A DNA stretch of 62,015 nucleotides from a bacterium (GTDB lineage Bacteria > Acidobacteriota > Thermoanaerobaculia > Multivoradales > JAHEKO01). The DNA lies in contig JAAENP010000295.1 in the NCBI GenBank assembly GCA_024224155.1, positions 1 to 62,015 on the forward strand. The letters run 5' to 3'. Position 1 is the stretch's first letter, and each line of letters begins with the position of its first letter. The notes below the pieces were generated by a model, which saw only the letters and a program-made list of their open reading frames with translations, searched no databases and had not been told where the DNA came from. The translations under genes and the position numbers were made by a program. Of the stretch, positions 45,024 to 61,633 are shown piece by piece.

Positions 45024-45053
45024 TGTGTTCCTCCAGTGGGTTCGTAGGTTGTC

Positions 45054-45769
45054 TTATCCGGAGTTCTTCGAGCCGACGGCCTTCGCGAAATGCTGCCAGA
45101 GCCGGCGCTGCGGCGGCAGCTCGAGCAGGTTCTCCGGGTGCCATTGCACCGCTCGCAGCCACCACCCCTCGTCGCGGTGCTCGGCGACTTCCAGGACTCC
45201 GTCCGGGGCGTAGGCCACCGGCTTCATCTCCGGAGCCAGGTCCTTGACCGCCTGGTGGTGCCGGGAATTGACCTCGGCCTTGCCTTCCGCGAGCGTCTCG
45301 CCGAGGGGACTCGACGTGTCGGTGACCTCGACGGGATGCGCCAGATGATCTTCCGGCTCTTCGAAGTCGTGATCGGTCGTATGGGGCAGCTGACTCGGTA
45401 GATCCTGCCAGAGGGTTCCCCCCAGAAAGACGTTGACCACCTGCAGGCCCCGGCAGATGGCCCAGATCGGCGTCTTGGCAGATTGCGCGCCTTTCATCAG
45501 GGACCATTCGATTCGATCCAGCTCCGGCACCAGGGTGAGATTGGCGTTCGGGCGGGCTTTCTCTCCGTAGCGCTCGGGCTCGATATCCGGACCTCCCGCG
45601 AGAACCAGCCCACCGGCCTCGGCCGCGAGCTGTTCGAGCGTGTCGTCGTCGGTCCCGTCGTCCTCGGGGCTCACGACGATCAGGCGCTGGCCGTCGATGC
45701 CGACGGACTGCAGCGCGTGCAAGTAGTTCTCGGCCTTGCGGCGGCTGCGAATGCAAACGACGACGCGGT

Positions 45770-45773
<4 letters not shown>
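45054..45773 (-). CDS. Class I glutamine amidotransferase-like hydrolase (PuuD/peptidase C26)
   Basis: 239 residues from GTG 45773, which overlaps the thiolase stop by four bases. The nucleophile Cys is in WAICRGLQVVNVFLGG, and the His/Glu pair in AVQWHPENLL; VNSRHHQAVKDLAP is the usual C26 segment. Relatives hydrolyse gamma-glutamyl-GABA in putrescine breakdown. With the aldehyde dehydrogenase nearby this could be a polyamine or gamma-glutamylated-amine route, but no glutamyl-putrescine synthetase or oxidase is in the window. The longer frame to 45989 is antisense-type extension. Confidence 0.9.
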
Positions 45774-46974
<1,201 letters not shown>

Positions 46975-46978
<4 letters not shown>

Positions 46979-48429
46979 GTGCCTACGAAGACCGTTTTGG
47001 TCTCGGTGTAATAGTCGAGCGCCGCCTTGCCGAGCTCGCGCCCGTAGCCGCTTTGCTTGAAGCCGCCGAACGGCGCTCCCGAGTCATACCAGTTGTACTG
47101 GTTGATCCAGACCGTGCCGGCCTGGAGCTGAGCCGCGACCCGGTGGGCCTTGCCCACGTCGCGAGTCCAGACCCCGGCGGCGAGACCGTAGATCGAGGCG
47201 TTGGCCAGTGCCACCGCCTCCTCGGGCTCGTCGAACGGAATCGCCACCAGCACCGGGCCGAATATCTCCTCCTGGGCAACGCGCATGGAGTTGTCGACTC
47301 CGGTCAAGATGGTCGGGTGCATGAAGTAGCCCTTGCCCTCGACGTCGGCCACGGTGCCGCCGGTCGCGACCTCGGCGCCCTCCGCCTTGCCGATATCGAC
47401 GTAGCCCATGACCGTGTCGCGCTGGCTCGAAGAGACCAGGGCACCCATGCGCGTCTTGGGGTGGAGCGGATCGCCGGGCTGCAGCCGCTCGGTTCGCGCC
47501 ACCAGCTTCTCGAGCAGCTCGTCGTGAACCTGGCGCTCGACGAAGAGCCGCGACCCCGCCGCGCAGACCTCGCCCTTGCCGTAGAAGATGCCGTTGTAGG
47601 CGCCCTTGACCGCGGCGTCGACGTCGCCATCGGCGAACACGATGTTGGGCGACTTGCCGCCGAGCTCGAGGGTGACCCGCTTCACGGTATCGGCGGCCTG
47701 CTTCATGATGCCTTGTCCGACCTCGGTCGAGCCCGTAAAGGAGATCTTGGCGATCCCCGGGTGGGAGACCATCGAGCCGCCAACCGCCGTGCCGCCACCT
47801 GTGACCACATTGAGAGTGCCGGCCGGCAGGCCCGCCTCGACCGCGAGCTCGGCGAACTTGAGCGCGGTGAGCGGCGTGTAGGACGCGGGTTTGTGGATGA
47901 CCGTGTTGCCACAGGCCAGGGCCGCGGCGATCTTCCACAGCGCCTGAATGATCGGGAAGTTCCAGGGCGTGATCGCGCCGACCACGCCCATCGGCTCGCG
48001 CAGGGTGTAGGCGAAGACGAACGGCCCCTCTACCGGGAAGGTGTCGCCGTGGATCTTGTCGGCCCAGCCGGCGTAGTAGCGCAACGCGGCGACGCCCGCG
48101 GGCACGTCGACATAGCGAGACTCGAAGATCGGCTTGCCGTTGTCGAGCGTCTCGACCAGCGCGAACTCGTCGATGCGCGCTTCGAGCGCGTCGGCGATCT
48201 TCCAGAGAATGCGGCCGCGGTCGCGCCCGGAGGTCTTTCCCCACTTACCGGTGAATGCCGCTTGCGCGGCTTCGACCGCGCGGTCGACGTCGGCCGGTGA
48301 GCCTGAGGCAACCTCGCAGAGGGTCTCCTCGACCGCCGGATTCTCGGTCGCGAAGGTCTTGCCGCCCTCGGGGGCGGTCCACTCGCCGCCAATGAAGAGC
48401 TTGGCCGGCGGGAGCTTGGGGTCGGTCAC
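46975..48429 (-). CDS. NAD(P)-dependent aldehyde dehydrogenase
   Basis: 484 residues from GTG 48429. Catalytic Cys in GKGEVCAAGSRLFV, general-base Glu in TLELGGKSPNI, cofactor loop FTGSTEVGQ and the oxyanion Asn in ITPWNFPI identify a class 1/2-like ALDH. The frame continues to 48546, but that lies in the previous gene. It follows the crotonase gene by four bases. It probably oxidises an aldehyde produced in the pathway of this operon; gamma-glutamyl-aminobutyraldehyde is one possibility because a PuuD-like gene is in the same operon. Confidence 0.94.
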
Positions 48430-48433
48430 TGGA

Positions 48434-49243
48434 TCAAACGCCTGTGAATTCGGGCTTGCGCTTCTCGATGTAGGCGGCCAGGCCCTCTCTGGCGTCGTCG
48501 CTCTGAAAGAGCTGCTGCTGGACCTCGCGCTCGATCGCGAGACCACTCTCGAACGGAACTTCCCAGCCCGACTGAACCGAGCGCTTGATCCGGCCGACGG
48601 CCTTGGAGGCCTTGTTGGGCGGGCAGAACTGCTTGGCGTAGTCGTGGACCTGGTCCATGAAGTCGTCGCCTTCCAGGACCTTGTTGACGATGCCCAACTC
48701 CTGGGCCTGCTCGAAAGAGATGAGACCGCCTTCGACCATGAGCTCGATCGAGCGGGTCTTGCCGATCATCCGTGACAGGCGCTGGGTGCCTCCCGTTCCT
48801 GGGAGCACTCCGAGGGTGACCTCGGGCAGTCCGACCTTGCCGGCGTCTTTTTTGGCCAGCATCATGTCCGCGGCCATCGCGATCTCGAGACCGCCACCGA
48901 CGGTGTGGCCGTTGAGCGCGGCGATCACCAACTTGGGCGTGTGCTCGAGCCGATTCAGGGTTTCGTTGGCATGCAGGCAGAAGTTGTACTTGAAGTACGG
49001 GTCCGACTTCTTGAGCATGTTGATGTTGGCGCCGGCGCAGAAGAACTTCTCGCCCAAACCGGTCAAAACGATGACGTGAACGTCGGCGTCGAAGCGGGCT
49101 TTGAGGACTGCGTCGTCGAGCTGACGCATCATCTCGTGGGTGTAGGTGTTCGCCGGCGGGTCGGTCAGGGTCATGTAAGCGACGCCATCTCTGACCTCGT
49201 ACTGAACTAGGATGCGCTGGGGTTCAGCTGAAGACTCAGCCAT
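48434..49243 (-). CDS. Enoyl-CoA hydratase/isomerase (crotonase family)
   Basis: First gene of the minus-strand operon, 269 residues. ATG 49243 has GGAGGAAAAA just upstream; the frame beyond it is not coding. Crotonase features are GANINML, Glu in GGGLEIAMAAD and PEVTLGVLPGTGGTQRL. It is clearly distinct from the second crotonase at 44247, so the operon carries two paralogues that may act on different chain types. Confidence 0.93.
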   Translation of the reverse strand: MAESSAEPQRILVQYEVRDGVAYMTLTDPPANTYTHEMMRQLDDAVLKARFDADVHVIVLTGLGEKFFCAGANINMLKKSDPYFKYNFCLHANETLNRLEHTPKLVIAALNGHTVGGGLEIAMAADMMLAKKDAGKVGLPEVTLGVLPGTGGTQRLSRMIGKTRSIELMVEGGLISFEQAQELGIVNKVLEGDDFMDQVHDYAKQFCPPNKASKAVGRIKRSVQSGWEVPFESGLAIEREVQQQLFQSDDAREGLAAYIEKRKPEFTGV

Positions 49244-49463
49244 AGTTTTTCCTCCGGAGCTTGGGGCGAGCGAGTCGCGAAACTGTTGGGGTTTTTCTTC
49301 CGGGCTGGCACCGTTGCCGGTAGCCGAAAGCCGCCGAGATTCTGTCACGACGCTCCGAGCGAGGCAATCCGCAGCAGTTGCGAACCCGTGGGAACTCGAG
49401 TGCCTTCGATCCCTACTAGAATTCGGCTACGAGGAATGCGGATGGACGGGGACTGAGCAGGTG

Positions 49464-49727
49464 ATGGAGACAGTCGCGGGCTGGTTGTTGGCGGCGCTGG
49501 GGCTCTACTTGGGCGCCGGTCTCGTTTTCGCTGTCGCCTTCGTGACCCGAGGTGTCCAGCGGATCGACCCGCAGGCCCGAGGTGGCAGCTGGGGATTTCG
49601 CCTGGCCATCCTGCCGGGTACCGCCGCCTTCTGGCCGATCCTGCTGCGGCGGTGGCTTCGCGGCCTGCCGCCGCCCGAGGAGAGCAACGCGCACAGGGAG
49701 CTCGCACGCAAGGGGAGCGGTCGATGA
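49464..49727 (+). CDS. Small membrane protein heading a redox/lipid operon
   Basis: 87 residues from ATG 49464 (GTG 49461 also possible; GAGCAGG upstream). The N-terminus is a transmembrane segment (VAGWLLAALGLYLGAGLVFA), followed by a second hydrophobic patch (FRLAILPGTAAFWPILL) and a charged tail. It overlaps the next small gene by four bases, and the ferric reductase/Rieske fusion follows. It is probably an accessory subunit of that membrane redox protein; no family recognised. Confidence 0.75.
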   Translation: METVAGWLLAALGLYLGAGLVFAVAFVTRGVQRIDPQARGGSWGFRLAILPGTAAFWPILLRRWLRGLPPPEESNAHRELARKGSGR

Positions 49728-49957
49728 TCCGGCGCCTGCGGCGGCGACATCGGTGGATGCTGGCGGTGGTCACGCTGGTTGTGGTGCCGCTCTTTCTCGC
49801 CGCCCTCGGGGCGAGACCCGATCGTGTGTTCGAAGAGCCTCCGATAGCTCTGATGCCTCCGGAGGGCGACCTCGAGAGCGGCGTCCTGGTGCTCTACAGC
49901 CTGGGTCACGGCGAGGAAGTGGCGCGCGTCGAATGGCCGGGCGAGGACAGCCCGTGA
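49724..49957 (+). CDS. Small membrane-anchored protein, 77 aa
   Basis: Arg-rich N-terminus, one membrane helix (WMLAVVTLVVVPLFLAAL) and a periplasmic tail of about 45 residues with no cysteines. ATG 49724 overlaps the preceding stop as ATGA, and the stop overlaps the GTG of the next gene as GTGA. The tight coupling to a ferric-reductase-like/Rieske protein suggests a subunit of a membrane redox complex. Function unproven. Confidence 0.75.
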   Translation: MIRRLRRRHRWMLAVVTLVVVPLFLAALGARPDRVFEEPPIALMPPEGDLESGVLVLYSLGHGEEVARVEWPGEDSP

Positions 49958-51021
49958 GCCATGCTTACCGGGCCGTGGGCTGGAACCGGCAGAAGCGTCT
50001 CTACGATCTGACGATTGCGGGCGGCGTCGTTCTCTACCTGGCCGTGTTCATCGGCACGGCTGCCGTGCTGCGGCCCAACGCCACCATCGAGACCCTGCTG
50101 ATCCGAGCACTCGGCACCGGCGCGCTGCTGCTCTTGCATCTGATTCTGTCGATCGGTCCGCTTTGCCGACTGGACTCCCGCTTCCTACCGCTTCTCTACA
50201 ACCGCCGTCATCTCGGCGTGACCATGTTCATTCTGGCGCTCGCCCACGGCGCCTTTTCGACCGTCCAGTTTCACGCCCTCGGCAACGTCAACCCGTTGCT
50301 GAGCGTGCTGACCTCGAACGGCCGCTGGGGCGATCTGGCTCAGTTCCCCTTTCAGCCTCTGGGCGCCGCGGCCCTGGTCATCCTGTTCCTGATGGCCGCC
50401 ACGAGCCACGATTTCTGGCTCGCCAACCTGACACCCCCGGTGTGGAAGACGCTCCACATGCTGGTCTACCTTGCCTATGGCCTGCTGGTGCTGCATGTCG
50501 CCCTCGGCGTGCTGCAGGCCGAACGGCACCCGCTGGCGGCAGGTCTTCTGGCTCTGGGCCTGGCGTGGATTCTGAGCATCCACCTCATAGCCGGCTGGCG
50601 CGAGCGCGCGGCCGATCGCGAGGTCGACGGCGCATCCGGAGACGATGGATTCGTCGAAGTCTGCCGGCTGCGAGACATTCCGGAGAAGCGAGCGAAAGTG
50701 GTCTGCCTGGCGGGCGAGCGGGTTGCGGTCTTTCGCTATGACGGCCGGGTCTCGGTGGTGTCGAACGTCTGCCAACATCAGAACGGTCCGCTGGGTGAAG
50801 GCCGGATCATCAACGGCTGCATAACCTGCCCCTGGCACGGCTTTCAGTACGAACCGGCGAACGGATCTTCGCCGCCGCCGTTCACCGAGAAGGTCCCGAC
50901 GTTTCGGGTGCGGCTGGACGGCGATCGGGTCCTGGTAGATTCACGTCCGAATCCACCGGGAACCGCCGTCGAGCCGGCCCGCGTTCCAGTGAACCGAGAA
51001 GCCGGGGAGGCCGCATCATGA
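49954..51021 (+). CDS. Ferric-reductase-like transmembrane domain fused to a Rieske [2Fe-2S] domain
   Basis: 355 residues from GTG 49954. Residues about 15-225 hold six or so helices of the ferric-reductase/MsrQ type with histidines suited to haem (ALAHGAF, FHALGN, TLHMLVYL, VLHVALG). Residues about 230-340 form a Rieske domain with CQHQNGPLG and CITCPWHGFQY, the paired Cys-His ligands. This would pass electrons through the membrane to a Rieske cluster. Neighbours on both sides are co-translated. Substrate is unknown; lipid desaturation or hydroxylation is conceivable given the acyltransferases downstream. Confidence 0.9.
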   Translation: MSHAYRAVGWNRQKRLYDLTIAGGVVLYLAVFIGTAAVLRPNATIETLLIRALGTGALLLLHLILSIGPLCRLDSRFLPLLYNRRHLGVTMFILALAHGAFSTVQFHALGNVNPLLSVLTSNGRWGDLAQFPFQPLGAAALVILFLMAATSHDFWLANLTPPVWKTLHMLVYLAYGLLVLHVALGVLQAERHPLAAGLLALGLAWILSIHLIAGWRERAADREVDGASGDDGFVEVCRLRDIPEKRAKVVCLAGERVAVFRYDGRVSVVSNVCQHQNGPLGEGRIINGCITCPWHGFQYEPANGSSPPPFTEKVPTFRVRLDGDRVLVDSRPNPPGTAVEPARVPVNREAGEAAS

Positions 51022-51785
51022 CCTCGGAGCGGGAGTTCTACGTTGGCTACCAGGCCAAGGTTCCCGGAGACTTAGCCAGGTTTCTGCGCCGCGCCGTGGT
51101 GCTCCTGGTGATGTTCGCCGCGGCGGTGGCCGCGACTCTCGCGGTGGCCCAGGGCCGATTCGATCCCGGTGTTTGGGAGTATGGCGTCGTTCGTAGCTTC
51201 GAGGGCGTGATTCGGGAGAGCCCGCACCCGGTTCTGCTCGTCGAGGGTCCCGGAACGGCCGAGAATCAGAATCGCCGACCTCTCCTGCTGGTCGCCGTCG
51301 GCAAGCGGGGCGCCGGCGCCGAGATCGCCGGTTTTGACGGGCAGCCCGTGAAGCTCAATGGCTCGCTGATCTACCGCGAGGGCGAGACCATGATCGAGGT
51401 GGTCGGTGGCAGCGTCGAGCCCCTCGGCGAAGCTCGGCTCGGTCTGCGGGCCGAATCCACGGACCTCGGGATCCGAACGCTACGCGGCGAGATCGTCGAC
51501 AGCAAGTGCTTTCTGGGGGTGATGAAACCCGGGCGGGGGAAGCCCCATCGAGGCTGCGCCTCGCGGTGCATCAGTGGAGGTGTGCCGCCGGTGCTGCGAG
51601 TCGAGACGCGGAGCGGCGACTATTGGCATTACCTGGTGGTGGACGAAAACGGTACTGCCGTCAACGACCGCGTGCTCGAGTACGTGGCCGAGCCGATCGA
51701 GATCACCGGCCGAGTGATTCGGCGCGATAGTCTCTTGTACATTCAAGCCGATCCCGAGACCTACCGGCGAACCGGACGCGGCTGA
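51018..51785 (+). CDS. Membrane-anchored protein with SKC...HRGCASRC motif
   Basis: 255 residues. After a charged N-terminus comes one membrane helix (AVVLLVMFAAAVAATLAVA) and a periplasmic beta-rich region. Near residue 160 the conserved-looking segment EIVDSKCFLGVMKPG is followed by KPHRGCASRCISGGVPP, giving three cysteines and a histidine that could bind a metal or cofactor. It overlaps the Rieske fusion gene by four bases, so it is probably a partner in the same electron-transfer unit. I do not recognise a named family. Confidence 0.82.
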   Translation: MTSEREFYVGYQAKVPGDLARFLRRAVVLLVMFAAAVAATLAVAQGRFDPGVWEYGVVRSFEGVIRESPHPVLLVEGPGTAENQNRRPLLLVAVGKRGAGAEIAGFDGQPVKLNGSLIYREGETMIEVVGGSVEPLGEARLGLRAESTDLGIRTLRGEIVDSKCFLGVMKPGRGKPHRGCASRCISGGVPPVLRVETRSGDYWHYLVVDENGTAVNDRVLEYVAEPIEITGRVIRRDSLLYIQADPETYRRTGRG

Positions 51786-51798
51786 GCCAACCGAACGC

Positions 51799-52611
51799 AT
51801 GACAAACGAAATCGCAGTTCGCGAATCGACCTATCCCGTTGCCGTCCGCCAGCTTCCGATGGAAGTCCTGCAAGACGGGCCGTATGAGGTCTCGTTCGCG
51901 CGCGACGACGAGGAGCTCGATCTCGCCTTGCGACTGCGATTCGCGGTTTTCAACGAGGAGTTGGGCGAGGGACTGGAGTCCTCGTACGAGACCGGCCGCG
52001 ATTTCGACGTCTTCGACACCTGTTGTCATCACCTGGTCGTGCGCGATACCCGGACCAGCGAGGTCGTGGGCACCTATCGGATGCAGACCGCGGGCATGGC
52101 GGCCCGCTACCGGGGCTTCTACAGTTCGGGTCTTTTCGATCTCGGGAGTCTGCCCGACGAGGTCGTCCGATCTTCGGTCGAGGTGGGGCGCGCCTGCGTG
52201 GCGAAGTCGCACCGGAGCAAGCTGGTCTTGTTTTTGCTCTGGAAGAGCCTGGCTCTCTACGTTGCCCACAACCAGGCACGTTTCCTTTTCGGGTGCTGCT
52301 CCTTGACCAGCCAGGACCCCCGAGAGGGCTGGCGAGCCATGAACTTTTTGGAGCGTGGGAACCACATGCATCCCGTGCTTTCGGTCGCTCCACTGGCCGA
52401 CCATGCCCTGGCCGGCGGGCCCTCGCCCGGCGATCGCGACAAGGACTCCCCAGAAGTCGAGTTGCCGATTCTCTTCAAGACCTACCTGCGCTTTGGGTCG
52501 AAGGTCTGCGGTCCGCCGGCGATCGATCGCGAATTCAAGACCATCGACTACCTGGTCATGATGGACATCGACGGTCTGAGGCCGCGGGTCCACAAGTTGT
52601 TTTTCGGCTAG
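51799..52611 (+). CDS. OlsB-like N-acyltransferase (GNAT fold)
   Basis: 270 residues of the OlsB/FeeM acyltransferase group. Visible motifs are LRLRFAVFNEEL, FDTCCHHLVVRD, VVGTYRMQT and EVGRACVAKSHR. OlsB proteins transfer a 3-hydroxyacyl chain from ACP to the alpha-amino group of ornithine, giving a lyso-aminolipid. The PlsC-type acyltransferase gene 19 bases downstream mirrors the olsB-olsA pair of ornithine-lipid synthesis. The actual amino acid acceptor (ornithine, glutamine, glycine or other) cannot be told from sequence. Confidence 0.85.
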   Translation: MTNEIAVRESTYPVAVRQLPMEVLQDGPYEVSFARDDEELDLALRLRFAVFNEELGEGLESSYETGRDFDVFDTCCHHLVVRDTRTSEVVGTYRMQTAGMAARYRGFYSSGLFDLGSLPDEVVRSSVEVGRACVAKSHRSKLVLFLLWKSLALYVAHNQARFLFGCCSLTSQDPREGWRAMNFLERGNHMHPVLSVAPLADHALAGGPSPGDRDKDSPEVELPILFKTYLRFGSKVCGPPAIDREFKTIDYLVMMDIDGLRPRVHKLFFG

Positions 52612-52630
52612 AGCGTCGGGAAATCTGGAG

Positions 52631-53401
52631 ATGGCGCGCCTTCGAGCCGGATGGAGGTTGTTGGTCATAGCTGTCGCCACGGCGGTGGCTTTCAAAATGA
52701 CCTTGCTCGGCCGCTTGCTGACGTTCCGCCGGCGTGCAGCCGAGGCTCGCTGGCGCCACCGCTGTTTTGGTGCCTGGGGCAGGATCGTGGTGCGAGTGCT
52801 GAACATCGACGTCACGGTCGTCGGTTCGGCGCCGAGGCCCCCTTTTTTCTTGGTATCGAACCATCTGAGTTACCTGGACATCGCGATCCTGGCGAGCCTG
52901 GTGGACGCGGTCTTCGTCGCCAAGAGCGAAGTGCGCGGATGGCCGGTGGTCGGGTTTCTTTGCAAGCACATGGGCACCATCTTCATTGATCGTACGGCAC
53001 GCCGGGACATTCCGCGCGTGATCGGGCGCATCGAGAAAGCGCTCGAGGTCGGTGAAGGAGTGGTGCTGTTTCCCGAGGGCACCAGCACGTCGGGGGCGTC
53101 GGTCGCGCCCTTTCGACCCTCGCTTCTGGCTCCGGCCGCGCGCGGCGGCCTGCCGGTGGCCGCCGCCGCTTTGAGCTACAGTACTCCTTCCGGTACCGAG
53201 CCGGCTCATCTGGCGGTGTGCTGGTGGGGGGACATGACATTCAGCGACCATTTCCTGCGCCTGCTTTCGCTTCCCGGCCTCTCGGCAAGGGTCGCTTTCG
53301 GCGTCGAGTCGATTCAGGATGACGATCGCAAGCGGCTCGCCGAGCGCCTGGAGACGGCGGTGCGCGGACTATTCATACCGGTGGCGGGAGCGGTCTCGTG
53401 A
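52631..53401 (+). CDS. PlsC-type acyltransferase (OlsA-like by context)
   Basis: 256 residues. The HX4D catalytic motif is NHLSYLD, and the second block is FPEGTSTSG; MGTIFIDRTARRD is the middle motif. A hydrophobic N-terminus (LLVIAVATAVAFKMTLLG) should anchor it to the inner membrane. Placed next to an OlsB-like gene, it is likely the O-acyltransferase that finishes a diacylated aminolipid, rather than the housekeeping phosphatidic acid enzyme. It overlaps the following DinB-like gene by four bases. Confidence 0.88.
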   Translation: MARLRAGWRLLVIAVATAVAFKMTLLGRLLTFRRRAAEARWRHRCFGAWGRIVVRVLNIDVTVVGSAPRPPFFLVSNHLSYLDIAILASLVDAVFVAKSEVRGWPVVGFLCKHMGTIFIDRTARRDIPRVIGRIEKALEVGEGVVLFPEGTSTSGASVAPFRPSLLAPAARGGLPVAAAALSYSTPSGTEPAHLAVCWWGDMTFSDHFLRLLSLPGLSARVAFGVESIQDDDRKRLAERLETAVRGLFIPVAGAVS

Positions 53402-53913
53402 CCCGTTTGGCGGTCGTCGAGCAGAATCTGGCGATGCTTCGTGACGGGCTGGCCTTGGTGAACGGCCTGGCCGACGATGTCTACGTGGCCGAAGATATCG
53501 GGGCCGGATCCGGCCTGGGTCCGCACATCCGGCACGTCATCGAGTTCTATCGGGCGCTGTTCGAGGGCCTGCCGGCCGGCAGGGTCGACTACGACCGGCG
53601 CGACCGGGACCGCGAGATCGAGCGCCGGCGGGGAGCCGCAACGGCGGCGATCGAGGACATTATCGTCAAGCTCGAGACCGTAGAGCTGAACCCGGATGTC
53701 GAGCTCCTAGTCAACGTCGACGCTCCAATCACCGGCGAGCCGGCGATATGGAGTCGATCCTCGGTGCTTCGAGAGCTCCAGTTCGCGCTTTCGCACACCA
53801 TCCACCACTATGCCTTGATCGCTCGGCAGCTGCGTGACCGAGGGGTGGATCCGGGAGCGGACTTCGGCATGGCGCCATCCACGATTGCCGCCCGCGAAGT
53901 CGGGGCCGGCTGA
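53398..53913 (+). CDS. DinB-fold protein
   Basis: 171 residues from GTG 53398. A four-helix DinB/YfiT-like fold is indicated by a first His in HIRHVIEFY and a SHTIHHYALIA helix with the metal-binding HxxxH pattern. DinB-like proteins include thiol-dependent S-transferases and some of unknown function. It overlaps the PlsC gene and is seven bases upstream of the hydrolase-DedA-ATP-grasp gene, so it is part of the lipid-related operon. Its reaction is unknown. Confidence 0.78.
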   Translation: MTRLAVVEQNLAMLRDGLALVNGLADDVYVAEDIGAGSGLGPHIRHVIEFYRALFEGLPAGRVDYDRRDRDREIERRRGAATAAIEDIIVKLETVELNPDVELLVNVDAPITGEPAIWSRSSVLRELQFALSHTIHHYALIARQLRDRGVDPGADFGMAPSTIAAREVGAG

Positions 53914-53920
53914 CGAACCG

Positions 53921-56494
53921 ATGCAACCGCCCATGGCGGCCGGGCGGCGCGCGGCTGTTGTCCTGGTGGCCGGCTATCTGCTCGCGCTGACGGCTGCGCA
54001 CGTTTGGAGAGCGCGCCCAGAGGTGGGCCGATCGCCCGATGAGGGACAGCAGAGCCTCACGATCGCCGGGCCCGCGGAATCGGAGGAGGTGTCGGTCGCC
54101 TTCCGGCAGAGCTGCACGACCGAGCAGCTCACTACTCGGCCGGCGCTCCTACTGCTTCACGGCAGTCCCGGCTCCTCGCGCGACTTCACCTCCCTGGCCC
54201 CGGCGCTTGCGGGGCGCTTTTGCGTCCTCTCTCCCGACCTCCCCGGCTTCGGGCGCTCGCAACGAGAGGTTTCGGACTATTCGATCCAAGCGCACGCCCG
54301 AGCGTCCCTAGAGCTGCTGAACGCCCTCGGGGTAGGGGAGTTCCACGTTCTCGGCTTCAGCATGGGAGGTGGCGTGGCGCTGGAGCTGGCGTCTCTGGCT
54401 CCGGATCGCGTCCGCTCGGTCATCCTGCTCTCGGCGATCGGTGTCCAGGAAGCCGAGCTGCTCGGCAACTACCACCTGAACCGAGCCGTCCACGGAGCCC
54501 AGCTGGCGGGGCTCTGGCTGTTGCACGAAGCCGTTCCCCATTTCGGCTTCCTGGACGACTCGATGCTCGATCTGCCCTATGCCCGCAACTTCTACGACAC
54601 GGATCAGAGGCCCCTGCGGCGGATTCTCGAGACCCTCGAGGTGCCGGTGTTGATTCTCCATGGGCGGAACGATCCGCTGGTGCCGCTGGCTGCGGCCAGA
54701 GAGCATCATCGGATCTCGCCGCAGAGCGAGCTGATTCTGTACGACGCGAGCCACTTTATGGTCTTCCAGGCCGAGCCGGAGCTGGTCGAGCCGATCGCGA
54801 GCTTTCTTGCCCGTGCCGAGTCGGGTCGCGCGCCGAGGCGCTCGGATGCGACGCCGGAACGTCTCGCGCGGGCGTCCGAGCCTTCGAATCCCAAGCTCCT
54901 GGGAGAAGCCCGAGGCATCGCTCTGTTCGTCTTGATGAATCTGCTGGCTCTGGCGACCTTCGTGAGCGAGGACCTGGCGAGTATCGGCGCGGGCCTGCTG
55001 ACCGCCCAGGGCCGGATCGGATACCTCGCGGGTTGCCTGGCTTGCTTCGTAGGCATCTTCGCGAGCGACGTCGGTCTCTATCTCATCGGCCGTGTCCTGG
55101 GCCGGCCCTGGATTCGGCGGGCACCTTTGCGATGGTGGATCTCCGAGGACTCGGTGCAGCGAAGCCGCAGGTGGTTTGACGACAAGGGGCCTTCGGTGGT
55201 CTTTGCCAGCCGCTTCGTGCCCGGCACGCGGGTGCCGACCTACGTCGCGGCCGGGGTGGTCGCGACCCCCTTCTGGCGATTCTCGTCGTACCTGGCGCTG
55301 GCCGTCACGGTCTGGGTGCCGCTGCTGGTCGGGATTTCGTTCCTCTTGGGCGTCAGGATCTTGGAGTACTTCGAGATATTCCGACGCTGGGCGCTCCCGG
55401 GCGCGTTCGCGCTCGCGCTTCTGCTCGTTGTCGGGTTGCGCCTGCTGAGATCGCTCGGGACTCGCCGCGGCCGGCTGCTGCTCGCGAGCCGGTGGCGCCG
55501 ACTGCGGCACTGGGAGTTCTGGCCGACGTGGGCCTTCTATCTGCCGGTGGTAGCTCGGATTGCGCGCCTCGCCGCCCGCCATCGGAGTCTCACCGTCTTC
55601 ACAGCCGCCAACCCGGCGATTCCAGCCGGCGGTTTCGTCGGCGAGTCGAAGTCCGAGATCTTGGAGCAGATCGGCGCTGACTGGGTCGCGGCGTTCCGGC
55701 TCATTCGGGCCGAGAGTGAAGATCCGGTCGCCGAGGCGCTGGAGTTCATGAGCGAACGGTCGCTCGACTTTCCCGTGGTCGTCAAGCCCGACGTCGGCGA
55801 GCGCGGACGGCAGGTCTCGATCGTGGCGACTCGAGATCTGCTCGCGGCGGCTCTGGCGGCGCCTCGTGCGGATTGTCTGGTCCAGGAGTATCTGCCGGGT
55901 CCCGAGCTCGGCGTCTTCTACGCGCGCCGGCCCGGCGACGAGCGCGGTCGAGTCTTTTCGATCACCGAGAAGCGTCTACCGGAAGTGATCGGAGACGGAG
56001 GCACGACGCTCGAGAAGCTGATTCTCGAAGACCCACGGGCAAACGCCATGGCTCCGGTGTATCTCCGGCGCTTCGCCGACGCGGCCAGGGTGGTCCCCGC
56101 ACCGGGCGAGAGGATTCGCTTGACCGAGATCGGCACGCATTGCCTGGGGGCGGTTTTCTTGGACGGACGGCGCTGGCAGACGCCGGCGCTCGAGGCGGAG
56201 GTCGAGCGAATCAGCCGGTCGTTCGAGGGTTTCTACTTCGGCCGCTACGACCTCAAGGCGCCCAGCTACGAAGCCTTCGGGCGCGGTGAAGGAATCCGAG
56301 TGCTGGAGCTGAACGGAGTTACCTCCGAGGCGACCCACATCTATGATCCTGAGAACTCGCTCGGTACCGCGTACAAGATCCTGTTTCGACAATGGCAGAT
56401 GGCCTTCGAGATCGGCCGCGCCAACCGGGACCGCGGCGCCAGGGCCGCCGGGGTGGGTGAGCTGTTGAGGTTGATTCGGAGGCATCTGCTCTGA
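53921..56494 (+). CDS. Three-domain fusion: alpha/beta hydrolase, DedA (VTT) membrane domain, ATP-grasp ligase
   Basis: 857 residues from ATG 53921. An N-terminal membrane helix leads to an alpha/beta hydrolase (about 70-300): Ser147 in GFSMGGG, Asp251 in HGRNDPL, His278 in DASHFMVF. Then a DedA/VTT domain (about 330-510) with the SRFVPGTRVPTYVAAG signature; DedA proteins move lipids across membranes. The C-terminus (about 555-857) is ATP-grasp-like: VVVKPDVGERG, VQEYLPGPELG and the metal-binding RVLELNGV. It resembles carboxylate-amine ligases. Fusion of a lipid-transporter fold with a ligase and a hydrolase beside OlsB/PlsC genes suggests modification and flipping of an aminolipid; this is inference. 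Confidence 0.88.
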   Translation: MQPPMAAGRRAAVVLVAGYLLALTAAHVWRARPEVGRSPDEGQQSLTIAGPAESEEVSVAFRQSCTTEQLTTRPALLLLHGSPGSSRDFTSLAPALAGRFCVLSPDLPGFGRSQREVSDYSIQAHARASLELLNALGVGEFHVLGFSMGGGVALELASLAPDRVRSVILLSAIGVQEAELLGNYHLNRAVHGAQLAGLWLLHEAVPHFGFLDDSMLDLPYARNFYDTDQRPLRRILETLEVPVLILHGRNDPLVPLAAAREHHRISPQSELILYDASHFMVFQAEPELVEPIASFLARAESGRAPRRSDATPERLARASEPSNPKLLGEARGIALFVLMNLLALATFVSEDLASIGAGLLTAQGRIGYLAGCLACFVGIFASDVGLYLIGRVLGRPWIRRAPLRWWISEDSVQRSRRWFDDKGPSVVFASRFVPGTRVPTYVAAGVVATPFWRFSSYLALAVTVWVPLLVGISFLLGVRILEYFEIFRRWALPGAFALALLLVVGLRLLRSLGTRRGRLLLASRWRRLRHWEFWPTWAFYLPVVARIARLAARHRSLTVFTAANPAIPAGGFVGESKSEILEQIGADWVAAFRLIRAESEDPVAEALEFMSERSLDFPVVVKPDVGERGRQVSIVATRDLLAAALAAPRADCLVQEYLPGPELGVFYARRPGDERGRVFSITEKRLPEVIGDGGTTLEKLILEDPRANAMAPVYLRRFADAARVVPAPGERIRLTEIGTHCLGAVFLDGRRWQTPALEAEVERISRSFEGFYFGRYDLKAPSYEAFGRGEGIRVLELNGVTSEATHIYDPENSLGTAYKILFRQWQMAFEIGRANRDRGARAAGVGELLRLIRRHLL

Positions 56495-56547
56495 GGCCCT
56501 TCACTCGCTCCGAGGTGGACCGCTACAAGCAGGCTAGGATAGCTGCC

Positions 56548-57471
56548 ATGATTCGCCGAAGGTCTCCGGGTCCAGCCAGTGCGACCTCCCTCGCGCTCGC
56601 GTGCCTTCTGTTCTCCGGCTGCTCGATTCGCAAGCTCGCCATCAATGGTCTGGCGGACGCGCTGGCCTCGGCCGGAGACGTCTACGCCTCGGACAGCGAT
56701 CCGGAGCTGGTCGAATCGGCCCTGCCTTTTTCGCTCAAGACCATCGAGGCTCTGCTTGCCGAGTCGCCGGGCAATCGGGGTTTGCTGCTCTCGGCGTGCA
56801 GTGGCTTCACCCAGTACTCCTATGCCTTTGTTCAGGCGCGCGCCGAGAGGCTGGAGCTCGACGACTACCTCGAATCCGAGCGTCAGCGGGACCGCGCCCT
56901 GGGGCTGTTCTTGCGGGCGCGGGACTACTGCCTGACCAGTCTCGAGCTGGACCATCCCGAAGTCACCGAGCGGCTGCGTCTGGAACCGGAGACCGCGGTG
57001 TCGGTCTTCGAGCCCACCGAGATCGATCTGGTCTACTGGACGGGTGCCTCCTGGGGCGCCGCGATGTCGGTGGGTGCTCACCGCCTGGACATTGTCGCCG
57101 ATCTGCCGGCGGTCCAGGCTCTCATGCGCAAGGTTCTCGAGTGGGCTCCGGCTTACGATGACGGCGCGGTGCAGGAAGTCATGATCTCGCTGGAATCGCT
57201 GCCCGAGGCCATGGGCGGCTCGCCGGAGCGGGCGCGAAGTTTCTTCGAGCGCGCGGTCGAGATTTCGGGTGGCAACAGTGCCGCACCTTTCGTGTCGCTC
57301 GCTTCCGGGATCGTGATCTCGGAGCAGAATCGCGCCGAGTTCGTCCAATTGCTCGAACGCGCCCTCGCCGTCGACGTCGACAAAGTGCCCGAACGACGGC
57401 TCGCCAACCTCGTCGCCCAACGCAGAGCCCAGCTCTTGCTCGACCGTATCGATGAGTACTTCATCGAATAG
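56548..57471 (+). CDS. TRAP transporter-associated lipoprotein TatT family
   Basis: 307 residues from ATG 56548, with signal LALACLLFSGC ending in a lipobox. The rest is alpha-helical, TPR-like: IDLVYWTGASWGAAMS and the ALPFSLKTIEALLAESPGN region agree with the TatT family, trimeric periplasmic lipoproteins that work with the TRAP binding protein. A GTG at 56515 in the same frame is a less likely start. Its end overlaps the dctP-like gene by 20 bases. Confidence 0.88.
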   Translation: MIRRRSPGPASATSLALACLLFSGCSIRKLAINGLADALASAGDVYASDSDPELVESALPFSLKTIEALLAESPGNRGLLLSACSGFTQYSYAFVQARAERLELDDYLESERQRDRALGLFLRARDYCLTSLELDHPEVTERLRLEPETAVSVFEPTEIDLVYWTGASWGAAMSVGAHRLDIVADLPAVQALMRKVLEWAPAYDDGAVQEVMISLESLPEAMGGSPERARSFFERAVEISGGNSAAPFVSLASGIVISEQNRAEFVQLLERALAVDVDKVPERRLANLVAQRRAQLLLDRIDEYFIE

Positions 57472-58498
57472 GTCCCGCATCGCGGTGCCGCTGCTGGCAC
57501 TGTGGGTACTCGGGGCGACCCTCGCGCCGGCGGACGCGCGGGCTTCCGACAACCGGATCATCAAGCTGGCGAGCTTGATTCCCAGCGGGTCGTTCTGGGA
57601 TCGGGCGCTCAAGTCGATGGGTGCGCAGTGGCGCGAAAAGACGTCGGGGCGGGTGCAGCTGCGCATCTATCCGGGTGGAGTCGCCGGCGATGATCCCGAC
57701 GTGTTGCGCAAGATGCGCATCGGCCAGCTCCAGGCCGGGACGGTCACGGTGTCCGGGCTCTCGGACATCGATCCGGCGTTCGCGCTGTTCGAGATCCCGA
57801 TGTTCTTCGACTCGTACGATGAGCTGTTTCACGTTTTTGAAGCCCTGAGTCCGGAGCTCGAGGCCAGACTCGAGGCCAAGGGCTACGTTCTCCTGCACTG
57901 GGCGCACGCGGGCTGGATCTACTTCTTCACCACCGAGCCCGTGGAGACGTTCGACGAGCTGCGGTCACTCGAGGTCTTTCAATGGGCCGGCGACTCGCGC
58001 ATGGAGACCCTCTGGCGCAGGCATGGCTTCCGGCCGGTGCCGCTTGCCGGGACGGACATTCCCATGGGCCTTCGGACCGGCATGTTCAAGACCCTGCCGG
58101 CCACGCCGATCGCCGCGCTCTCTTTGCAGTGGTTTCGTTCCGCCCCCAACATGATCGATCTGGGGCTCGCGCCGCTGATCGGGGCCACGCTCGTGGATGA
58201 GCGAGCCTGGGCTCGGATCGAGGAGGGGGACCGCCGGACGGTACAGGCCGCCGGCCGGGAGGTCGGGGAGCTGTTCCGTTCCGAGATCCCAGGTCAAGAC
58301 GCTCAGGCCATCGCCGAGATGGAAGGACGGGGACTGACCGTCCGGACGATCGTCGGAACTCCCGGGGAGGCGGCCTGGAAGAAGGCCGCGCTCGCCTTTG
58401 CCGACGACATGCGCACGACGTTTGTGCCCATGGATATCTACGATCAAGCGCTCGAGATCCGCGACGCCTACCGGGCGAGCGGGAAGGGGGAAGAATGA
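57452..58498 (+). CDS. TRAP transporter solute-binding protein (DctP family)
   Basis: 348 residues with a Sec signal peptide (AVPLLALWVLGATLAPADARA). DctP features are LASLIPSGSFWDRALKSMGAQW, GQLQAGTVTVSGLSDIDPAF, EIPMFFDS and MGLRTGMFKTLPATPI. In TRAP systems it captures a carboxylate ligand, often through a conserved Arg. No DctQ or DctM permease gene is found in the window; the next gene overlaps by four bases and encodes a Rieske/glutamate synthase fusion. Either permeases are elsewhere or the binding protein has another partner. Confidence 0.92.
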   Translation: MSTSSNRSRIAVPLLALWVLGATLAPADARASDNRIIKLASLIPSGSFWDRALKSMGAQWREKTSGRVQLRIYPGGVAGDDPDVLRKMRIGQLQAGTVTVSGLSDIDPAFALFEIPMFFDSYDELFHVFEALSPELEARLEAKGYVLLHWAHAGWIYFFTTEPVETFDELRSLEVFQWAGDSRMETLWRRHGFRPVPLAGTDIPMGLRTGMFKTLPATPIAALSLQWFRSAPNMIDLGLAPLIGATLVDERAWARIEEGDRRTVQAAGREVGELFRSEIPGQDAQAIAEMEGRGLTVRTIVGTPGEAAWKKAALAFADDMRTTFVPMDIYDQALEIRDAYRASGKGEE

Positions 58499-60117
58499 AG
58501 AAGATCAAGATCGCCGACTGGGAGTCGCTTGCCGACCGCCAGCCGTCTCACGCTCTGGTGGCGAACGTCGACCTGGTCGTCGTCCGTTTCGATGACGCAG
58601 TCTCGGTGCTCTACGGGCGCTGCCAGCATCGTGGCGCGCTGATGTCGGATGGCTTCGTGCGGGGTACCGACATCATTTGCGGCGTTCACAACTGGGACTA
58701 CCAGTTCGAGAGCGGCGTCAGCTCGTACAGCGTCGACGAGCGCCTGCACAAGTTCGGAGCCTGGGTAGAGGAGGGGGGCGTCTGGGTCGACGAGGACGAG
58801 ATCGCGGCCTGGGAGCGCGACAACCCTCAGCCCTACGACCGGGGCGCCTACCAGGGCGTGTTTCAGGACCACTCCAAGGGCAGCCCGGCGGAGCCCCATG
58901 TCAAGTTGATCCACTCGCTCGCCGACCACGGACTCGAAAAATATGGCCACCACGGCCCGGTCGCTGCGATGGGCGTACCTCGCACCGATCTGCCGGTCTG
59001 GGACGATCTGCAGTTCGTGACCGCGCAGCTCGCGCGCGTGCCCCAACTCGACGACGTGCCGGTCGCGACCGAGTTGGTGGTCGGGCCGGAGGCCGCGAAG
59101 CCGCTCAGGCTCCGGATTCCGCTCATCGTTTCCGACATGTCGTTCGGCGCGCTCTCGTTCGAGGCCAAGGTGGCCCTGTCGAAGGGTGCGGAGCTCGCCG
59201 GCACCGGAATCTGCTCGGGCGAGGGCGGCATGCTGCCCGAGGAGCAGGGGGCCAACAGCCGCTACTTCTACGAGCTCGCCTCGGCGCGCTTCGGCTTTTC
59301 CATGGACAAGCTCGAAAAGGTGCAGGCCTTCCACTTCAAGGGCGGCCAAGGGGCCAAGACAGGCACCGGTGGCCACCTGCCGGGCGAGAAGGTCAAGGGC
59401 AAGATCGCCGAGGTTCGCGGTCTGCCCGAAGGGCAAGGCGCGATCTCGCCGGCCCGATTCCCCGATTGGGAGGACGAAGACCCGTTTCGACATTTCGCCG
59501 ATGAGGTCCGCGAGGTCACCGGAGGGATTCCGATCGGCTTCAAGCTCTCGGCACAGCACATCGAGGACGACATCGATGCGGCCCTTCGAATCGGCGTCGA
59601 CTACATCATTGTGGACGGCCGGGGCGGTGGTACCGGAGCCGCGCCGCTGCTCTTCCGCGACAACATCTCCGTGCCGACGCTGCCCGCGTTGGCCCGGGCT
59701 CGCCGCCATCTCGACAAGCGCGGCAAGTCGGGAAGAGTGACTCTGTTCATCACCGGCGGACTGCGCACGCCGGCCGACTTCGCCAAGGCGCTAGCCCTGG
59801 GTGCCGACGGGATCGCCGTGTCCAACGCGGCGATTCAGGCGATTGGCTGCCTGGGCATGCGCGCTTGTCACACCAACAACTGCCCGGTCGGAATTGCCAC
59901 CCAGAAAGAGCACCTTCGGGACCGCTTGCCCGTGGACCAGGCCGCCGAGCGGCTGTCCCGGTTCTTCGCGGCGTCGGTCGAGTTGATGCAGGTGCTGGCG
60001 CGGGCCTGTGGTCACGTCCACTTGAACCAGTTCCGCAACGGCGACCTGACCACCTGGAAGTGCGACGTGGCGCATCTGACCGGGGTGGCCTACGGCGGGG
60101 TCGGCTCGGTAGGGTAG
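58495..60117 (+). CDS. Rieske domain fused to glutamate synthase-type FMN domain
   Basis: 540 residues. The N-terminal 110 residues form a Rieske-like domain with YGRCQHRGA and CGVHNWDYQF as Cys-His ligands. The rest is the glutamate-synthase central/FMN barrel: LIVSDMSFGALS, GEGGMLPEEQ, KGGQGAKTGTGGHLPG, GRGGGTGAAP, and a [3Fe-4S] cysteine set in GMRACHTNNCPVG. There is no glutaminase domain, so ammonia or another amide donor would be used, or the barrel has a different reaction. It is the last gene of the 49.5-60.1 kb operon, overlapping the dctP stop. Confidence 0.92.
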   Translation: MKKIKIADWESLADRQPSHALVANVDLVVVRFDDAVSVLYGRCQHRGALMSDGFVRGTDIICGVHNWDYQFESGVSSYSVDERLHKFGAWVEEGGVWVDEDEIAAWERDNPQPYDRGAYQGVFQDHSKGSPAEPHVKLIHSLADHGLEKYGHHGPVAAMGVPRTDLPVWDDLQFVTAQLARVPQLDDVPVATELVVGPEAAKPLRLRIPLIVSDMSFGALSFEAKVALSKGAELAGTGICSGEGGMLPEEQGANSRYFYELASARFGFSMDKLEKVQAFHFKGGQGAKTGTGGHLPGEKVKGKIAEVRGLPEGQGAISPARFPDWEDEDPFRHFADEVREVTGGIPIGFKLSAQHIEDDIDAALRIGVDYIIVDGRGGGTGAAPLLFRDNISVPTLPALARARRHLDKRGKSGRVTLFITGGLRTPADFAKALALGADGIAVSNAAIQAIGCLGMRACHTNNCPVGIATQKEHLRDRLPVDQAAERLSRFFAASVELMQVLARACGHVHLNQFRNGDLTTWKCDVAHLTGVAYGGVGSVG

Positions 60118-60129
60118 CTCGCGCCTTGT

Positions 60130-60150
60130 TATCGGTCGACCTGACCGATA
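60130..60150. terminator. Hairpin between convergent genes
   Basis: TATCGGTC (60130-60137) and GACCGATA (60143-60150) are perfect arms with a five-base loop. It sits 13 bases behind the Rieske/glutamate-synthase gene and could end transcription in both directions. No U-run follows, so intrinsic termination is not certain. Confidence 0.5.
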
Positions 60151-60195
60151 GAGGCCGCCGGTGCCGCCTCGCGATGCCTCCGCGGTTAGAAAGAT

Positions 60196-60777
60196 CTACT
60201 CTTCTTCGAAGAGCTTCAGGTACTCGCCGTATCCCTCGGCCTCCAGCTCCTCGACCGGGATGAAGCGCAGGGCCGCCGAGTTCATGCAATAGCGTAGTCC
60301 CGTCGGCTTCGGGCCGTCGTTGAAGACGTGCCCCAGGTGAGAATCGCCGTGCTTTGAGCGAATCTCCGTCCGGGTCATGAACCGCTTGCGGTCGACCTCC
60401 TCGACAACGTTTTCCTTCTCGAAAGGCGCCCAGAACGAAGGCCAGCCGGTCCCCGACTTGTACTTCTCGAGCGAGCTGAAGAGTGGCTCACCGCTGACGA
60501 CGTCCACGTAGATCCCGGGCTTCTTGTTGTCCCAGTACTCGTTGTTGAAAGGCCGCTCGGTAGCGTCCTCCTGGGTGACACTCCATTGGAGGTCGGTCAG
60601 TCGGTTCCGCAGTTCTTCAGCGCTTGGCTTCTTGTACACCTTGGTTTCTCCTTGCTTCTCGGCGGCTCGGGTCGAGGCGGCCGGTCCCATATTGCCCGCC
60701 AGAACCAGCAGGCACGGCAGGAGAAGAAAGAAGAGATTCTTGGACTTGCTCGTGATTCTTCCAGCTGCCTTGCTCAT
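60196..60777 (-). CDS. msrB: Periplasmic peptide methionine sulfoxide reductase B
   Basis: 193 residues. An N-terminal signal ([16 protein letters not shown]) should export the enzyme. MsrB motifs: [33 protein letters not shown], with the catalytic Cys in RYCMNS. The four zinc cysteines of many MsrBs are missing (SGEPLFSS in place of CGxPLF), so it is the zinc-free form. It reduces R-methionine sulfoxide in oxidised periplasmic proteins. GGAGG lies three bases before ATG 60777. Confidence 0.95.
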
Positions 60778-60835
60778 GATGCCTCCACTCGAATTCGACT
60801 CGGATTCTTAAACCATCTCTCGGATCGGCATATTC

Positions 60836-60853: not shown

Positions 60854-60922
60854 CTGTCGTGACGTGATCCGCTGTCCCCCGAGCCGTACCCGATCTACAA
60901 TACGCTGTTGGACGGCACTCAG

Positions 60923-61633
60923 ATGATTACCGGCTACAACACGGACGTCCGCCACCGGGGAGTGGTGTTTCACGTCCAGACCGAAGACAAGGGGGTCAAC
61001 AACCCCTGCATCGAGAGCCTCGTCTACGTCGGCGGCCAGATCCTGCATCGCCGCCGTTCCGAATACGCCCAGCTGCTCAAGGACGGCGGTGGCAAGGAGG
61101 CCATCCTGGAGCTGCTCGAGGCCCAGCATCGTGAGCTGATTGCCGAGATCAGAACCGGCAAGCTGGACTCGGACGCCGAGAGCAGGCTCGGCCCCCTGGC
61201 CGTTGCGGCGCCCGCGGTGCGAGAGCCATCGGGTGCCGGAGCCGGTGCGGGGCTGGCGGGAGCGGCTGGGGCCGGCGAAGGCGGCGCTCAGAGTCTCGAT
61301 CAGGTCATTCTCGATTATCTCAACATGGAAGCGGAGCAGGAGTATCTGATTCTGGCGATGGACTCGATAGGCGAGCTGGCGCTCGGCAGCGAGGCCCGGC
61401 TGGCTTTTCACGCCAAGACCAGCGGTTTGAGCAGTCCGGTCGCCGACGCCGACATCGCGGTCAAGATCATCTCGACCGTGTCGGAGCCGGAGATTCTAGG
61501 CGCCGGCAGGACCAATGCCGAGGGCAATTTGAATCTGCGTATCGCCATCCCGGAGATAACCAAAGGCACCGCCGCCCTGATCATCACCGCCACCAGCGAG
61601 GTCGGTGCGGCGGAGATCAAGCACTTGATCTAG
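60923..61633 (+). CDS. Conserved-type protein of unknown function
   Basis: 236 residues from ATG 60923; a TTG at 60908 in frame would add five. The N-terminal 60 residues (MITGYNTDVRHRGVVFHVQT and VYVGGQILHRRRSEYAQLL) look like a compact beta domain. Then comes an Ala/Gly-rich linker (VREPSGAGAGAGLAGAAGAG) and a C-terminal beta-sandwich-like part (ARLAFHAKTSGLSSPVADAD). No signal peptide. It precedes thiS on the same strand by 18 bases. Function unknown. Confidence 0.75.
   Translation: MITGYNTDVRHRGVVFHVQTEDKGVNNPCIESLVYVGGQILHRRRSEYAQLLKDGGGKEAILELLEAQHRELIAEIRTGKLDSDAESRLGPLAVAAPAVREPSGAGAGAGLAGAAGAGEGGAQSLDQVILDYLNMEAEQEYLILAMDSIGELALGSEARLAFHAKTSGLSSPVADADIAVKIISTVSEPEILGAGRTNAEGNLNLRIAIPEITKGTAALIITATSEVGAAEIKHLI

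Follow-up and report, generated by a model that had tools for sequence, protein, structure and literature searches.

Aminolipids are common phosphorus-free bacterial membrane lipids, and the domain layout of MprF unites lipid aminoacylation with flipping. The lysyl-phosphatidylglycerol synthase LpiA and the periplasmic hydrolase AcvB are encoded in one operon and interact, according to the available sections of PMC13197417. For ornithine lipids, the available sections of PMC12493201 describe a third published pathway, in Singulisphaera, whose first enzyme is the GH3 protein OlsH. Known aminolipid head groups listed there include ornithine-taurine and glycine-serine, so head-group extension has chemical precedent; the literature consulted names no enzyme for it. 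Ornithine lipid is not made by laboratory E. coli (PMC11001654). In the available main text of a 2024 aminolipid review (PMC11631085), words beginning with flip, transport or translocat are absent. Here we describe a cluster of eleven genes (49464–60117, + strand) in the window, the whole 62,015-nucleotide stretch analyzed, which comes from a contig (JAAENP010000295.1) of a Thermoanaerobaculia-related acidobacterium. Its eighth gene, g8, encodes an alpha/beta hydrolase, a DedA/VTT membrane domain and an ATP-grasp domain in one protein (hereafter the fusion), and lies downstream of OlsB- and OlsA-type acyltransferase genes (g5 and g6). Our reading, to which we assign a probability of about 0.55, is that the operon serves first to synthesize and then to process an acyloxyacyl aminolipid, which the ligase would modify, the DedA domain flip, and the periplasmic hydrolase limit.

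The eleven proteins were assigned to families by Pfam and NCBIfam scans, the latter covering all except g2. As in the OlsBA ornithine lipid pathway, an OlsB-type gene stands beside an OlsA-type gene, and the best NCBIfam matches are the OlsB and OlsA models. The g5 protein passes the PF13444 cut-off (102.4 bits against 22.4) and falls far below the OlsB equivalog cut-offs (140.6 of 350 for NF052554, 130.7 of 320 for NF052555), and is thus labeled OlsB-type rather than OlsB. The g6 protein has a PlsC-type domain (PF01553, 75.1 bits) in which N77, H78, D83, F147 and E149 are found in 40 of 40 homologues and P148 in 38 of 40; it too lies far below its equivalog cut-offs (145.7 and 131.8, each of 300). 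The source genome (96.6% complete) yielded five PlsC-type genes and no PF13444 match other than g5. In a 45-row tree, a quick one with long reference branches, 32 fusion-linked OlsBs and two unlinked ones nested among them form a group separate from six Acidobacteriaceae-type and five reference OlsBs. Because g5-type OlsB stands apart from the S. meliloti sequence (L148) and from Acidobacteriaceae-type enzymes, the first amino acid, putatively ornithine by closest family, is unproven. Unlike the six OlsB-OlsA loci read in family f24, which are pairs with no fusion, the window adds a DinB-fold protein (g7) and the fusion, and its relatives add a TANGO2/NRDE-family protein. Likeness to LpiA/MprF with AcvB/VirJ would lie in the proposed logic only, that is, to aminoacylate a lipid, flip it and apply a periplasmic hydrolase. 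The g8 protein is one polypeptide with an ATP-grasp domain instead of a tRNA-dependent transferase and DedA instead of the MprF flippase fold, and is tied to aminolipids rather than phosphatidylglycerol; the 14 Pfam families listed for it at E 0.1 include neither a VirJ model nor an MprF/LpiA lysyl-phosphatidylglycerol synthase family. As for the OlsH/OlsI pathway, GH3 takes the place of OlsBA beside DinB, NRDE and the fusion in three planctomycete loci, whereas the available text of PMC12493201 mentions neither DedA nor ATP-grasp.

Searching 84,980 species genomes with the DedA-ATP-grasp part yielded 436 relatives, of which the best 80 were read, a sample biased towards the window's kin. The nearest, at 70% in that part, belongs to a Thermoanaerobaculia metagenome-assembled genome (CALZIK010000093.1; L056). 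Within the same order the fusion was found along the greater part of its length in seven of nine sampled families (f1–f4 and f6–f8; 59 genomes); f9 had only the DedA-ATP-grasp part with high similarity, f5 had none, and many other matches listed in this family survey are plain hydrolases. Among the 80 loci, a fused hydrolase occurs in 67, OlsB in 51 (one of which, L066, is really OlsF), OlsA in 48, DinB in 45, NRDE in 21, g4 in 20, the heme-Rieske protein in 18, g1 in 16, Rieske-GltB in 4, and TAtT and DctP in 2 each; OlsB, OlsA, DinB and fused hydrolase are all together in 31. Many contigs end early. Where at least 6.5 kb of upstream sequence is available (53 loci), OlsB lies within 10 kb in 43 cases, OlsA is present in 40, DinB in 36 and a fused hydrolase in 50; the genomes of the 10 without linked OlsB all carry a PF13444 gene elsewhere, its frame spanning 615–639 residues (OlsF length) in five, 281–327 in four and 333 in one. 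The OlsB-linked form occurs under the NCBI names Acidobacteriota, Balneolota, Planctomycetota, Gemmatimonadota, Bacteroidota/Rhodothermota, Calditrichota and Krumholzibacteriota. Conserved linkage and co-occurrence across phyla rule out chance neighbors. The conserved heart is OlsB, OlsA, DinB (often with TANGO2/NRDE) and the fusion, and is smaller than eleven genes. The DinB-fold protein keeps H133 and H137 in 31 of 31 homologues and H46 in 30 of 31. The TANGO2/NRDE-family protein (PF05742) lies between DinB and the fusion in many relatives, not invariably there (27 loci, 23 distinct proteins; among them L024, L028, L031, L038, L082 and L161–L163). Near the fusion, 13 loci (11 distinct proteins; L027, L025, L064 and L105 among them) encode a small membrane protein that resembles DoxX weakly, with a score under the Pfam cut-off, and often lies just downstream. 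Eight single neighbors of the fusion or of DinB (in L089, L102, L109, L118, L121 and L125) included no shared lipid gene.

The fusion also tracks three unrelated aminolipid synthases. In Planctomycetota, DedA-ATP-grasp genes occur in 30 of 195 genomes, all 30 of which have OlsB (15), an OlsF-like gene (8) or GH3/OlsH (7). Strong OlsB matches (>300 bits) were found in the 15 carriers, within 10 kb of the fusion in 14, and in no genome outside the 30. Four of the eight OlsF-like genes adjoin the fusion (L153–L156; confirmed by Pfam for the first two and by similarity for the last two), and the remaining four lie 46 kb off or on a different contig. Two of these eight carriers call for caution, the frame in G458 having only 461 residues and the DedA-ATP-grasp match in G412 containing two stop codons. 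An OlsF gene also lies beside the fusion in a Myxococcota-labeled record (L066). GH3 is present in all seven carriers that have neither OlsB nor OlsF, directly upstream of DinB-NRDE-fusion in three (L161–L163) and more than 100 kb from the fusion in four. In Acidobacteriota, 47 of 297 genomes carry DedA-ATP-grasp, after exclusion of a 48th (G303) whose match covered only the DedA part; strong OlsB is present in 41 of the 47, within 10 kb in 34 of the 41 (odds ratio 75, Fisher p 3e-28, uncorrected for shared ancestry), while two further carriers (G079, G159) have OlsF-like frames and another (G230) has GH3. A tie to three unrelated synthases is the kind of evidence that shared ancestry alone does not supply, and support for a link between the fusion and aminolipids is good.

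The start of g8 is best placed at the ATG at 53921, 7 bases past the DinB stop; the residue numbers given here run three higher than a count from that ATG. Its hydrolase part matches general abhydrolase models and has a triad, S150-D254-H281, that is complete in 53 of 66 homologues; the remaining 13, all lacking the serine, are 12 Balneolota members and one Acidobacteriota-labeled sequence (L124). In eight of the 12 Balneolota loci a separate alpha/beta hydrolase-like stretch was observed on the opposite strand, upstream of OlsB. The DedA/VTT domain is above its Pfam cut-off (PF09335, 67.3 bits against 33.9), and none of 66 homologues departs from E353, D354, R434, P437 and R440. The domain shares conserved charged residues with UptA and other DedA flippases and differs from them in being fused between hydrolase and ligase and in scoring below the UptA NCBIfam equivalog cut-off (61.9 of 250 bits). 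Pfam RimK matched the ligase part weakly (16.3, below the cut-off of 21). The predicted DedA-ATP-grasp structure (predicted local distance difference test score, pLDDT, 91.2) has a modeled ATP-grasp fold with matches to cyanophycin synthetase 1 (CphA1, Z 16.7), GshF (15.4), carbamoyl phosphate synthetase (14.7), LysX/ArgX (14.6), RimK (13.8) and Ddl. The CphA1 match, the closest solved fold, has a root-mean-square deviation of 4.5 over 259 residues at 17% identity and covers model residues 210–503 only; a profile search likewise ranked cyanophycin synthetase and GshAB first, and g8 differs from cyanophycin synthetase by its membrane fusion. K625, P626, G629, R778, D780, E799, N801 and E806 are invariant in 66 of 66 homologues; K625, D780, E799 and N801 we take to be ATP/Mg ligands, by comparison with Ddl. 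Analogy with these enzymes suggests carboxylate-amine ligation by the ATP-grasp domain. In 45 of 53 distinct homologues the stretch ahead of the first helix holds more lysine and arginine than the stretch behind it (fewer in six, equally many in two; 60 of 93 long members had a recognizable first helix and motif, and duplicates were then removed), which would place the hydrolase outside. Three further crossings, counted from the predicted model and hydropathy, together with the need for ATP, would place the ligase inside. This charge pattern suggests a topology with a periplasmic hydrolase and a cytoplasmic ligase.

An unlikely alternative, though the most serious of those we weighed, is that the fusion mainly flips an unmodified aminolipid, with the ATP-grasp domain sensing or powering transfer and the hydrolase acting, like OlsI, as an acyltransferase or deacylase on the acyl ester. 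Singulisphaera OlsI is an O-acyltransferase of alpha/beta-hydrolase fold (available sections of PMC12493201), and in seven loci from the window's taxonomic order (L026, L030, L031 and L035–L038) tblastn detected no OlsA in the interval from OlsB to the fusion. OlsA and the fused hydrolase are nevertheless both present in 47 of the 80 loci, which rules out the hydrolase as a simple replacement for OlsA; the GH3 locus L163 has its own separate alpha/beta hydrolase; and the invariant metal and ATP residues suit catalysis. The Balneolota members, moreover, retain the system without the hydrolase serine. More doubtful is the proposal that the fusion acts on some other component of the envelope (undecaprenyl phosphate, say, or a precursor of peptidoglycan or of a peptide) and adjoins aminolipid genes through a common envelope-stress regulon. 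The DedA part does score on the model of UptA, an undecaprenyl-phosphate transporter, and D-Ala-D-Ala ligases are among the structural relatives of the ligase, but a shared regulon poorly explains the tie to three unrelated aminolipid synthases.

Several observations weigh against our own reading, in which an aminolipid is ligated, flipped and trimmed. Ten Planctomycetota genomes have OlsB or OlsF-like genes and no fusion (one, G369, with a match of OlsB length at 136 bits; the nine others OlsF-like or shorter, and weak), as do 21 Acidobacteriota genomes with strong OlsB, 19 of them in one family (f24); the fusion is thus not needed for aminolipid synthesis itself. Conversely, G099 and G267 carry DedA-ATP-grasp with no OlsB, OlsF or GH3, and G233 with only weak PF13444 matches. 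The co-occurrence tests ignore phylogeny, and the base rate of GH3 comes from small control sets only (0 of 12, and 1 of 7 fusion-bearing genomes with OlsB or OlsF). The hydrolase serine is absent in all 12 Balneolota members read (L080, L086, L088, L094, L096, L108, L110, L112, L113, L116, L117, L133); hydrolysis is therefore dispensable there, and the hydrolase is ruled out as the essential catalytic part. The structure matches include ATP-grasp enzymes of other chemistry (the carbamoyl phosphate synthetase above, biotin carboxylase and synapsin), the substrate of an ATP-grasp domain is not readable from sequence, and the charge test covered 60 of 93 long members, the other 33 showing no recognizable helix or motif.

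The reading of ligation, flipping and trimming follows from family logic, namely carboxylate-amine ligases, DedA flippases and the AcvB-LpiA precedent. The analysis shows gene content, conservation, co-occurrence and intact active-site residues directly, whereas topology, substrate, reaction order and product are inferred. The reconstructed order would be as follows: OlsB would N-acylate an amino acid and OlsA would add a second fatty acid. The cytoplasmic ATP-grasp domain would then activate a carboxylate, belonging either to the lipid itself or to a free amino acid, and form an amide that extends or caps the head group. The DedA domain would move the product to the outer leaflet, where the periplasmic alpha/beta hydrolase may remove or recycle it. 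DinB and TANGO2/NRDE would be conserved helpers, and the heme-Rieske protein would act with g4 as redox partner to this system. That this aminolipid is unusual compared with ordinary ornithine lipid is unproven. A wider proposal, which we advance tentatively and hold less probable than the reading of the operon itself, is that DinB, NRDE and the fusion form a portable module by which any acyloxyacyl aminolipid, whether from OlsBA, OlsF or OlsH/OlsI, becomes a head-group-extended (for example dipeptide) lipid in the cytoplasm, which that one polypeptide then flips and, on the periplasmic side, trims.

The genes ahead of OlsB appear, from their distribution, to be a second module associated with the core, centered on the heme-Rieske protein (g3) and g4. 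The Rieske Cys and His ligands of g3 are retained in 14 of 14 homologues, and g2 is probably a short version of a protein of 143–222 residues that occupies the equivalent position at 12 loci (8 distinct proteins). The g4 protein is predicted (pLDDT 88.5) to have a membrane helix and two OB-like domains, in the second of which C164, H177, C180 and C184 are invariant in 20 sequences. A sequence search against solved structures gave no match at E 10 and structural matches were weak, to OB folds only (best Z 7.7), so that "two OB-like domains" is a soft description; DUF5818 is matched weakly by 3 of 20 members (best E 0.007). Full-length g4 was found in 32 of 297 Acidobacteriota genomes, and 13 further ones match its C-terminal half only. 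Short proteins (frames of 124–237 residues) match only the Cys/His OB-like half (G060, G069, G087, G093, G123, G170, G329, G334 and others), and the C-terminal Cys/His domain seems to belong to a wider family. At L062 the redox module lies beside the core on the opposite strand. It is improbable, in our judgment, that this module alters the lipid directly, the heme-Rieske protein and g4 passing electrons for hydroxylation or desaturation with DinB as the metal enzyme and the ATP-grasp domain secondary. Consistent with such a role, DinB retains its three histidines and g4 tracks the fusion, with 30 of its 32 genomes also carrying DedA-ATP-grasp, in some despite large chromosomal distance (about 1.6 Mb in G110); in the planctomycete Poly30 about 50 kb separates the two. 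Yet 17 of the 47 fusion-bearing Acidobacteriota genomes have no g4, which makes it a partner of the fusion rather than a core part, and no lipid hydroxylase emerged when the eleven proteins were scanned with Pfam and NCBIfam.

The last three genes bear on a proposal of the earlier note, made on this DNA from sequence alone, that all eleven genes serve one pathway in which the GltB-like enzyme could supply or transform an amino acid. As an indivisible pathway this is ruled out, since g9–g11 are not conserved with the core: TAtT-DctP adjoins the core in two of the 80 loci, each from the family of the window, and Rieske-GltB appears sporadically, in four. We regard even a dedicated eleven-gene pathway, in which Rieske-GltB would produce or convert the amino acid and TAtT-DctP would transport the lipid or a precursor, as very improbable, the least probable of the alternatives. 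For it speak the tight spacing through g11, the equivalents of g9–g11 after the fusion in L056, and the presence of Rieske-GltB near the redox module in other families, including a planctomycete (L026, L037, L038, L047, L101), sometimes divergently upstream. The amino-acid-supplying role for GltB gained no support. What held up well from the same note is the general theme, an amino-acid lipid that is synthesized, modified and translocated, which the domains suit and which the tracking of OlsB, OlsF and GH3/OlsH favors. The outcome that was to refute it, a gene order kept only among close strains, did not appear, the core being conserved across phyla. The g10 protein is a DctP-type solute-binding protein (NF037995, 267 bits against 50); no TRAP (tripartite ATP-independent periplasmic) membrane subunit DctQ or DctM is among the eleven genes, the part of the genome that was searched. 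TAtT-DctP and Rieske-GltB would, from their distribution, be local additions. A Rieske-thiamine-diphosphate enzyme fusion (L036:1495–3465, − strand; same cluster in L035, L037, L047, L055, L101 and L130) adjoins Rieske-GltB and the heme-Rieske module in several of those loci, and L050 encodes a Rieske domain joined to an FMN (flavin mononucleotide) reductase, of which five further loci have relatives. Several enzymes in the vicinity of the redox module seem to carry a Rieske domain.

All eleven genes are open frames. Of their ten junctions, five overlap by 4 bases and one by 20, and the remaining four leave gaps of 13, 19, 7 and 53 bases, which verifies the tight cluster with overlaps or gaps under 55 bases that had been described earlier; the OlsB-like gene beside a PlsC acyltransferase (Pfam domains and best NCBIfam matches), the joining of hydrolase, DedA and ATP-grasp in one protein (Pfam, with a structure model for DedA-ATP-grasp) and the two separate Rieske fusions (g3 and g11, by Pfam) were likewise confirmed. 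A search for sigma-70-like promoters over 48300–61000 found none, against 1.0 expected in shuffles, so a single transcript is argued from spacing and conserved order alone. The two features downstream of the operon keep the same order in L056.

Table 1. Coordinates of the operon and its neighbors in the window.
Gene	Position	Strand	Description
g1	49464..49727	+	87 aa with a single predicted membrane helix and without Pfam family; found repeatedly at the head of the redox module
g2	49724..49957	+	77 aa, one predicted membrane helix, no Pfam family
g3	49954..51021	+	Ferric-reductase-like membrane heme protein with C-terminal Rieske domain (Pfam)
g4	51018..51785	+	Membrane-anchored, two OB-like domains (predicted), invariant Cys/His motif; no Pfam family
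g5	51799..52611	+	OlsB-type N-acyltransferase (PF13444, Acetyltransf_5)
g6	52631..53401	+	OlsA-type PlsC-fold O-acyltransferase; HX4D and FPEG motifs intact
g7	53398..53913	+	DinB-fold protein (Pfam DinB_2), three conserved His
g8	53921..56494	+	857 aa; N-terminal membrane anchor, alpha/beta hydrolase, DedA/VTT, C-terminal ATP-grasp
g9	56548..57471	+	TAtT, lipoprotein-like TRAP T-component; lineage-specific
g10	57452..58498	+	DctP-type TRAP substrate-binding protein; lineage-specific
g11	58495..60117	+	Rieske and GltB-type FMN barrel (Pfam Glu_synthase)
Upstream divergent block	44247..49348	-	Enoyl-CoA hydratase, aldehyde dehydrogenase, thiolase, peptidase C26 (glutamine amidotransferase type), second enoyl-CoA hydratase
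Downstream	60196..60777	-	MsrB methionine sulfoxide reductase
Downstream	60908..61633	+	241 aa frame

As far as searches of the open-licence literature in PMC (no preprints) tell, a ligase-flippase-hydrolase protein may be undescribed. DedA and ornithine lipid were not found together there, nor were VTT domain and ATP-grasp; ornithine lipid and ATP-grasp co-occurred only via a reference list, and papers with both DedA and ATP-grasp were unrelated, judged by title. A single gene that tracks three unrelated aminolipid pathways is a concrete candidate for both head-group modification and leaflet transfer. Carriers include members of the cultured genera Fodinibius and Balneola, namely Fodinibius salsisoli (L086), F. 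halophilus (L088), Aliifodinibius/Fodinibius salipaludis (L110) and Balneola sp. EhC07 (L112); unidentified aminolipids are reported for another species, Fodinibius alkaliphilus (available sections of PMC12260241). If the ligase activity is true, the fusion would be a second solution to the problem of making and flipping aminoacylated lipids, and the portable module, if it exists, would be a tRNA-independent counterpart of MprF and the first translocation route for aminolipids.

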